NCBI GenBank assembly: GCA_002168115.1
Contig: NHCC01000018.1
Location: 203,002-244,083, forward strand
Direction: 5' to 3'
From: Rhodospirillaceae bacterium TMED23
GTDB lineage: Bacteria > Pseudomonadota > Alphaproteobacteria > Rhodospirillales > UBA2165
Length of the DNA: 41,082 nucleotides
The position numbers were made by a program, and so were the translations under genes. This document shows, one piece after another, positions 745-3,251 of the stretch; position 1 is the first letter of the stretch, and the number at the start of each line of letters is the position of its first letter. The notes beneath the pieces were generated by a model that did no database searches, was not told where the DNA came from, and was given only the letters and a program-made list of their open reading frames with translations.

Positions 745-1155
745 TTAAGACTGTTTTTCGATTTTTGGTATATTATCGAGGTTAAAAGCCCATAATTGCG
801 CGGATCGACACCAAATCTGTTTTTTTGGAACAAGCCCCTGATTATTATCAACCGTACCTAATCTTATATTAAAGATCCGATCACCACTTTCTTGGGTTGA
901 GGTGGCATAAATGTGAGAACCACACTCTGAACAAAAAGCTTGTATTCGAGGAGTCCCATTATTAGATTTTTTTATATAAATTTTTGGCTCACTTCCTAAC
1001 AAAGTGAAGTTTTTTTCATTTGCTGGTATTACTATTCGATAAGCCGCTGCAGATAATTTTTGGCAGTCTGTACAATGACATATCCCAACCCCCTTCTCAT
1101 CAGCCTCAGCTTCGTATAAAATATTCTCGCAGTGGCAGCCACCTGAGATTCTCAT
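745..1155 (-). CDS. GFA-family (CENP-V/GFA domain) zinc-binding protein
   Basis: A 136-residue protein with the cysteine pattern of the glutathione-dependent formaldehyde-activating (GFA) fold: GGCHCE near residue 7, CHCTDCQ near residue 26, and FCSECGSHIY near residue 74. These cysteines bind structural and catalytic zinc in the family. The ATG at 1155 has a good GGAG Shine-Dalgarno about 8 bases upstream. Most members of this family have no proven reaction, and the formaldehyde-glutathione role of the namesake is disputed, so only the fold is assigned. It lies 14 bases downstream of the arylsulfotransferase-like gene on the same strand, so the two are probably cotranscribed. Confidence 0.85.
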   Translation of the reverse strand: MRISGGCHCENILYEAEADEKGVGICHCTDCQKLSAAAYRIVIPANEKNFTLLGSEPKIYIKKSNNGTPRIQAFCSECGSHIYATSTQESGDRIFNIRLGTVDNNQGLVPKKQIWCRSAQLWAFNLDNIPKIEKQS

Positions 1156-2282: not shown

Positions 2283-2495
2283 CTATTCTGGTAGGTCAAT
2301 TTCTAAAATCGCCATGTTAAAATCATATGAGACCTCACCCTCTTCTTCATCCCGATACAAAGTACCTATGAATTCCTCACTTAAATAAACCTCCAAAGAG
2401 TCTTGTGCCTTAATCCGACTAACAAGTCTAAAATTATCATTTTTAAACTTACTACGTAGATATTTTTGAAGCTTTTGTACTTCTATCTCGGTCAC
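2283..2495 (-). CDS. DUF3126 family protein
   Basis: A 70-residue acidic protein with the DUF3126 pattern: VQKLQKYLRSKF at the N-terminus, then DSLEVYLSEEFIGTLYRDEEEGEVSY and MAILEIDLPE at the end. As far as I know the family is almost confined to Alphaproteobacteria and has no known function. The start is a GTG at 2495 with an AGGAGAAGG Shine-Dalgarno immediately upstream. No cysteines, membrane segments or signal peptide are seen. It sits between the GST and the ASST-like gene on the same strand, with short gaps. Confidence 0.85.
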   Translation of the reverse strand: MTEIEVQKLQKYLRSKFKNDNFRLVSRIKAQDSLEVYLSEEFIGTLYRDEEEGEVSYDFNMAILEIDLPE

Positions 2496-2554: not shown

Positions 2555-3238
2555 CTATTGTTGATTTTGACTTAATATTTCGGCTGCCAGTGTTTTCCTA
2601 TTATAGAGATTAACCCGATAAACTTCAGAAAAATCATTTGGAACAGAATTTATAATAAAGTCATTATTCATTAGCGCATCAGACCACGCGATTATTTTCG
2701 GATACTGTTTTAAAATATGTGTTGGGTTTATTTTCTCGACAATCTCAAATCGCATTATAAATGGTGCGTAAGCTGCATCTACAAGAGATATTTTTTCATC
2801 ATTAAAATACGGGCCATTATTACTACGGCGAGACAATGCGCCTTCCAGTTTTTGCAATGTAAATGGTAATTCGTTCAAAGCCGACGAATGTTCCTTGATA
2901 GTTTTAGCATACGTCACTTGATTAAGTGCCCTAGCCCAATTTCCCGTAAAATCAGTCCACGCTCTATTGTAAGCGCGCATGATCGGATCCTCGGGAGCTA
3001 GACGTGGTTCAACCACTTCATCAAGAAACTCTGCAATTGCATTTGACTCAAATAGTGCAATATCATTAACTTTAAGAACTGGAACTTTTCCATGGGGGGA
3101 AATCTCTAAAAACCATTTAGGTTTTTCTTCTTTATTAATGTATGTTACGTCAAAATCTACTTTTTTTGCACGCAATACAATCACGGCGCGCTGAACCCAT
3201 GGTCAGGTTTTGAAACTTATTAGGTGATAATTATCCAA
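2555..3238 (-). CDS. Selenocysteine-containing glutathione S-transferase (TGA at 3203-3205 read as Sec12)
   Basis: A GST of 227 residues if the in-frame TGA is decoded. From the TTG at 3238 the protein begins MDNYHLISFKT-U-PWVQRAVI, and TGA falls exactly where Cys-active GSTs have the catalytic Cys of a C-P-[WFY] motif. The thioredoxin-fold half continues with the cis-Pro segment GKVPVL (Pro53) and ESNAI (64-68, glutathione binding), then an all-helical C-terminal domain. An AAGGAG Shine-Dalgarno lies 7 bases before the TTG, and an in-frame TAA precedes it. The shorter reading from GTG 3184 loses the first beta strand and active site, has no Shine-Dalgarno, and starts inside the predicted SECIS stem. 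The sequence directly shows the TGA, the continued family homology and the hairpin. Sec insertion is inferred; the alternative is a gene with a single nonsense mutation. Likely role: glutathione-dependent thiol or peroxide chemistry. Confidence 0.8.
3168..3191 (-). promoter_or_regulatory. SECIS-like stem-loop downstream of the GST UGA codon
   Basis: On the GST mRNA the 11 bases after the UGA lead into a stem: GCGCGC (3191-3186) pairs with GCGUGC (3173-3168), five G-C pairs and one G-U. Inside is a C/U mismatch and a possible short GUG/UAU extension closing an AUUG loop. The apical part starts about 17-21 bases after the UGA. A G-containing loop on a short GC stem at this distance is what bacterial SelB-binding SECIS elements show. 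The fold was done by eye, without energy calculation. Confidence 0.6.
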
Positions 3239-3245
3239 TTAAATG

Positions 3246-3251
3246 CTCCTT
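3246..3251 (-). promoter_or_regulatory. Shine-Dalgarno deciding the upstream TTG start of the GST
   Basis: AAGGAG, 7 bases before the TTG at 3236-3238. It is one of the best ribosome-binding sites in the window. It serves a frame that has only eleven codons before the TGA, which makes sense only if ribosomes continue through that TGA. Confidence 0.75.

Follow-up and report, generated by a model that had tools for sequence, protein, structure and literature searches.

GSTs with selenocysteine (Sec) in place of cysteine were listed in 2005 as new selenoproteins from the Sargasso Sea (four sequences; PMC1088965) and again in the Global Ocean Sampling (GOS) survey of 2008 (12 sequences; PMC2398784). 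Sec-GSTs also appear in later reviews, where their function is described as largely uncharacterised (PMC9312934, PMC13188914). Since Sec-GSTs had already been reported from marine metagenomes, as an earlier note on this DNA had pointed out, the novelty of the locus described here is lowered accordingly. The window, that is, the whole 41,082-nucleotide stretch of DNA analysed, comes from a marine-type alphaproteobacterium and contains a GST gene with an in-frame TGA at codon 12 (Table 1). The selenoprotein reading proposed in that note is strongly supported by conservation of the UGA, the presence of Sec machinery, Cys-containing homologues and constraint at the RNA level, together with the GST fold of the product. 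We put the probability at about 0.97 that this is a genuine selenoprotein gene, encoding a Cys-type GST in which UGA is decoded as Sec via SelB, tRNA-Sec and an in-gene stem-loop.

The translated frame (LDNYHLISFKT*PWVQRAVIVLRAKK...ILSQNQQ*) holds a single internal stop, the TGA. An in-frame TAA immediately 5' of the TTG codon excludes an earlier start, and both the start and the ribosome-binding site are intact, as the earlier note had claimed. The read-through product scores above the cut-offs of the Pfam domains GST_N_2 (E 6.7e-17), GST_N_3, GST_C_2 and GST_C_3. These matches begin at residues 5-11, so that GST homology spans the TGA; translation and domain content thus agree with the previous observation that the GST frame reaches upstream past this codon. 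A standard ORF call, by contrast, starts the gene at GTG 3184 and returns an ORF of 209 residues, the product of which is devoid of the first strand and the catalytic residue. Automatic calling therefore truncates the gene with loss of its active site, as had been predicted.

Table 1. Features of the Sec-GST locus (positions in the window).
Feature	Position	Strand	Details
Proposed selenocysteine GST gene	2555..3238	-	TTG start 3238-3236, TAG stop 2557-2555; 227 residues including Sec12
In-frame TGA (proposed Sec codon 12)	3203..3205	-	position of the catalytic Cys in C-P-[WFY]
AAGGAG ribosome-binding site	3246..3251	-	7 nt before the TTG start; read directly
Predicted bacterial SECIS stem-loop	3168..3191	-	GCGCGC (3191-3186), apical CGUGAUUGUAUU (3185-3174), GCGUGC (3173-3168); fold inferred
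GCCGTGATT motif	3179..3187	-	invariant as GCCGTGAT[T/C] in UGA copies, absent from Cys copies
DUF3126 protein gene, downstream neighbour	2283..2495	-	GTG start; context only

Codon 12 was compared in 135 homologous loci, a count slightly inflated by duplicates (the window itself and loci retrieved twice). It is TGA in 33 of them and a Cys codon in the other 102 (81 TGC, 21 TGT), with no other codon found. Such a distribution, with TGA at exactly this position and TGC or TGT in the remainder, excludes chance. It bears out the suggestions that the TGA occupies the active-site Cys of a Cys-Pro-[WFY] motif and that a random nonsense mutation is an unlikely cause. The deduplicated set comprises 30 UGA and 101 Cys sequences, and the codon statistics rest on the 29 UGA and 101 Cys proteins that were long enough. 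One further UGA copy (L127, genome G014), whose contig breaks off shortly 5' of the TGA, was left out of the counts. The nearest homologue, from Rhodospirillales assembly BS30m-G14, is 89% identical. For the part of the gene after the UGA, this pair gives dN 0.057 and dS 0.461; the 11 codons preceding the UGA show 0 nonsynonymous changes. Close relatives carry intact GST copies with the same UGA, and not the decayed copies which, according to the earlier note, would have spoken against a selenoprotein.

The sequence downstream of the UGA is constrained at the RNA level. Among 101 conserved degenerate codons of the UGA set, codons 18, 19, 16, 23 and 17 have the lowest entropy. All five of these least variable codons fall within codons 16-23, the region expected to hold a SECIS stem-loop (hypergeometric chance ~3e-7); their ranks in the Cys set are 55, 48, 56, 8 and 7 of 86. 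All codons share one tree, and relatedness alone therefore does not explain the frozen ones. At the nucleotide level, positions 12-26 and 31-37 after the first UGA base are nearly invariant in UGA copies, third codon positions included (CAGCGCGCCGTGAT[T/C]....TGCGTGC). The motif GCCGTGAT[T/C], located 18-26 nt downstream, is present in 29 of 29 distinct UGA proteins versus 0 of 101 Cys copies, both inside the UGA clade (0/14) and elsewhere (0/87). Every UGA copy has Val (GTG) at residue 19, where Cys copies from outside the clade mostly have Ala, suggesting that the RNA dictates the identity of this residue.

The predicted stem-loop lies within the coding sequence, starting 14 nt after the first UGA base and spanning 14-37 nt. 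Most UGA copies can form GCGCGC/GCGUGC arms around a 12-nt apical part (CGUGAUUNNNNU), and a description with a 6-bp stem, 12-nt apical part and G at position 2, 17 nt from the UGA, fits most of them. The altered arms of L143 (AAGGGC-CGUGAUU-GCCCUU) and of L138 and L141 (GGGC-CGUGAUU-GCCC) enclose the same apical sequence. In all, five UGA copies (L107, L138, L139, L141 and L143) have arms unlike the GCGCGC/GCGUGC type with apical GCCGUGAU kept, which may represent covariation of the SECIS stem. The published bSECIS model (loop of 3-9 nt, G in the first two loop positions, 16-37 nt from the UGA, MFE <= -7.5) fits 17 of 30 UGA copies, the window's own not among them, versus 64 of 102 Cys copies. 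Since the two sets conform to it about equally, the model does not discriminate between them, and we relied on the comparative signal instead. In single-sequence folding, the corresponding stretch of the window has an energy unremarkable against shuffles (z -0.84 to 0.09). A scan of the window gave no Rfam match, and hence Rfam neither supports nor excludes a SECIS.

The components for which the earlier note had advised a genome-wide search, selA, selB, selD and tRNA-Sec, are all present in the same genome (a multi-contig assembly, 86% complete), on contigs other than that of the GST. The selA gene (592 bits; L001) is directly followed by selB, which was identified by reading the ORF translation rather than by profile search. 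The tRNA-Sec scores 73.5 bits (cut-off 47) and has anticodon TCA. It is found on the selAB contig (L002 1500-1595), ~35 kb away, and neither lies inside nor adjoins selB; in some alphaproteobacteria, tRNA-Sec is reported to be located inside or next to selB. The selD gene (401 bits; L120, G000:C18:21501-22427) resides on another contig than selAB and has an in-frame TGA of its own just before GAKVAP, as in known Sec-containing SelD. Judging from this codon, the selenophosphate synthetase of the same genome is thus probably a selenoprotein too.

The UGA gene also tracks selA across 199 related genomes: selA was found in 17 of 20 genomes with the gene versus 14 of 179 others (Fisher p 1.4e-13, a value that treats kin as independent and, the genomes being interrelated, overstates the number of independent observations). 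The three UGA-gene genomes without selA are all incomplete assemblies. Two of them have tRNA-Sec, and in the 85% complete G012 neither selA nor tRNA-Sec was found. In the genus of the window, selA accompanies the UGA gene in six of six other genomes; two members, G003 (57% complete) and G006 (88% complete), lack both the gene and selA.

These data bear on three other explanations of the TGA. If it were a recent stop in a decaying gene, or if translation began at the downstream GTG, the 209-residue ORF call would be accounted for. However, the same codon is TGA in 33 loci with intact frames, and purifying selection continues after it, with the 11 codons before it unchanged in amino acid; a protein started at the GTG would be missing strand 1 and the nucleophile. 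We hold this explanation to be highly improbable, and conservation of the UGA across several families refutes a pseudogene. An artefact in which TGC or TGT became TGA might be suspected from the metagenome-style assembly, some loci of which have ambiguous bases. The chance of this is smaller still by our estimate, since the identical TGA recurs in independent assemblies, each time coupled to a downstream motif that no Cys copy possesses, which refutes an error.

Decoding of UGA as Trp, Cys or another ordinary residue, through a different code or a natural suppressor, found no support, an open frame under a changed code being no evidence. Against it, the window's housekeeping genes are full-length ORFs under the standard bacterial code, in line with the earlier argument that codon reassignment is no explanation. 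The genome encodes complete Sec machinery, the UGA gene co-occurs with selA, and the frozen nucleotides lie downstream where a SECIS belongs. On this conservation pattern, codon reassignment was rejected, and we give ordinary decoding very little credence. Under the preferred reading, decoding as Sec, SelB and tRNA-Sec would insert selenocysteine at codon 12, with the stem-loop guiding the process.

AlphaFold2 predicts a confident GST fold (pLDDT 93.7) with a strand at residues 4-8 and a helix at 13-24. Residue 12 lies between them where helix 1 begins, the arrangement of omega-type Cys-GSTs. C12-P13 and the glutathione-binding motifs V52-P53 (cis-Pro) and E64-S65 are invariant in 33 sequences. 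Among PDB structures, tau and omega GSTs match best, and sequence matches place Sec12 on the Cys-Pro of omega GSTs, in which this Cys is catalytic. Together, these matches point to an enzyme that uses a selenolate nucleophile for glutathione-dependent thiol transfer or reduction. In sequence, this Cys-type GST is nearest to the omega, lambda and DHAR-like thiol-dependent classes. Its active-site nucleophile, where helix 1 starts, would be Sec rather than Cys, and the enzyme would most likely act via a selenyl-sulfide with glutathione. The neighbouring genes (DUF3126, arylsulfotransferase-like and GFA), kept at least in part in the nearest relative, give no pointer to the substrate. The GFA-domain gene (glutathione-dependent formaldehyde-activating type; 745-1155, minus strand), three genes downstream of the GST, may be functionally linked to it through glutathione.

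In the maximum-likelihood tree, the UGA copies group with 14 Cys copies in a single clade (support 98/96) inside Cys GSTs. Parsimony on the UGA/Cys state gives five changes, interpreted as a single gain with four reversions, and a tree built without the active-site and stem-loop codons also gives five. A single split of the UGA copies occurs in 0% of bootstrap trees but is not rejected by the AU test (p 0.146), so that the reversion count is favoured rather than proven. Among the Cys lineages inside the clade, selA was not found in the gene-carrying f27 genomes or in the pair G009/G019 and is kept in f18 and f23; both f23 genomes and the single f18 genome tested also have tRNA-Sec. One Cys (TGT) copy inside the clade, L124 (G060:C189), has a frame broken late, near a contig end, owing to either sequencing error or decay. 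We lean slightly towards a scenario in which an alphaproteobacterial Cys-GST gave rise to Sec-GST a single time, with about four later returns to Cys. Each return would have released the stem-loop constraint, with the Sec machinery sometimes lost and sometimes kept. According to a 2026 review (PMC13188914), Sec-to-Cys changes are rare in bacteria, with FdhA and SelD as the main documented cases. If the scenario is true, Sec-GST would be the third family with matched natural Sec/Cys pairs. The matched UGA and Cys copies, with their clear RNA signature, make a clean test set for the contribution of Sec to a GST and for the gain and loss of a SECIS inside coding sequence.

The Sec-GST family is known, from computation only, and the gene in the window is a well-supported further member. 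In both the Sargasso/GOS family (COG0625/PF13409) and the present case, a GST of marine bacteria has Sec for Cys and was recognised by Cys/Sec comparison. Compared by description only, the two likely belong to the same subfamily. The accessible text of the Sargasso and GOS reports gives no motif or host detail, whereas the present work adds the host machinery, the distribution and a subfamily-specific SECIS signature; its extra value lies in the latter two and in the probable Sec-to-Cys reversions. Omega, lambda and DHAR-type Cys GSTs (e.g. GSTO1) share the fold and an active-site C-P-[FWY]-x-Q-R that aligns with Sec. The window's GST differs from them in being bacterial and having Sec instead of Cys, and is ~22-30% identical to solved structures over the aligned parts. 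Cys-type proteobacterial GSTs are closer, being mostly 42-60% identical and sharing the motif S-F-K-T-C-P-W-V-Q-R-A, but these have TGC or TGT at codon 12, usually Ala rather than Val at residue 19, and no GCCGTGAT[T/C].
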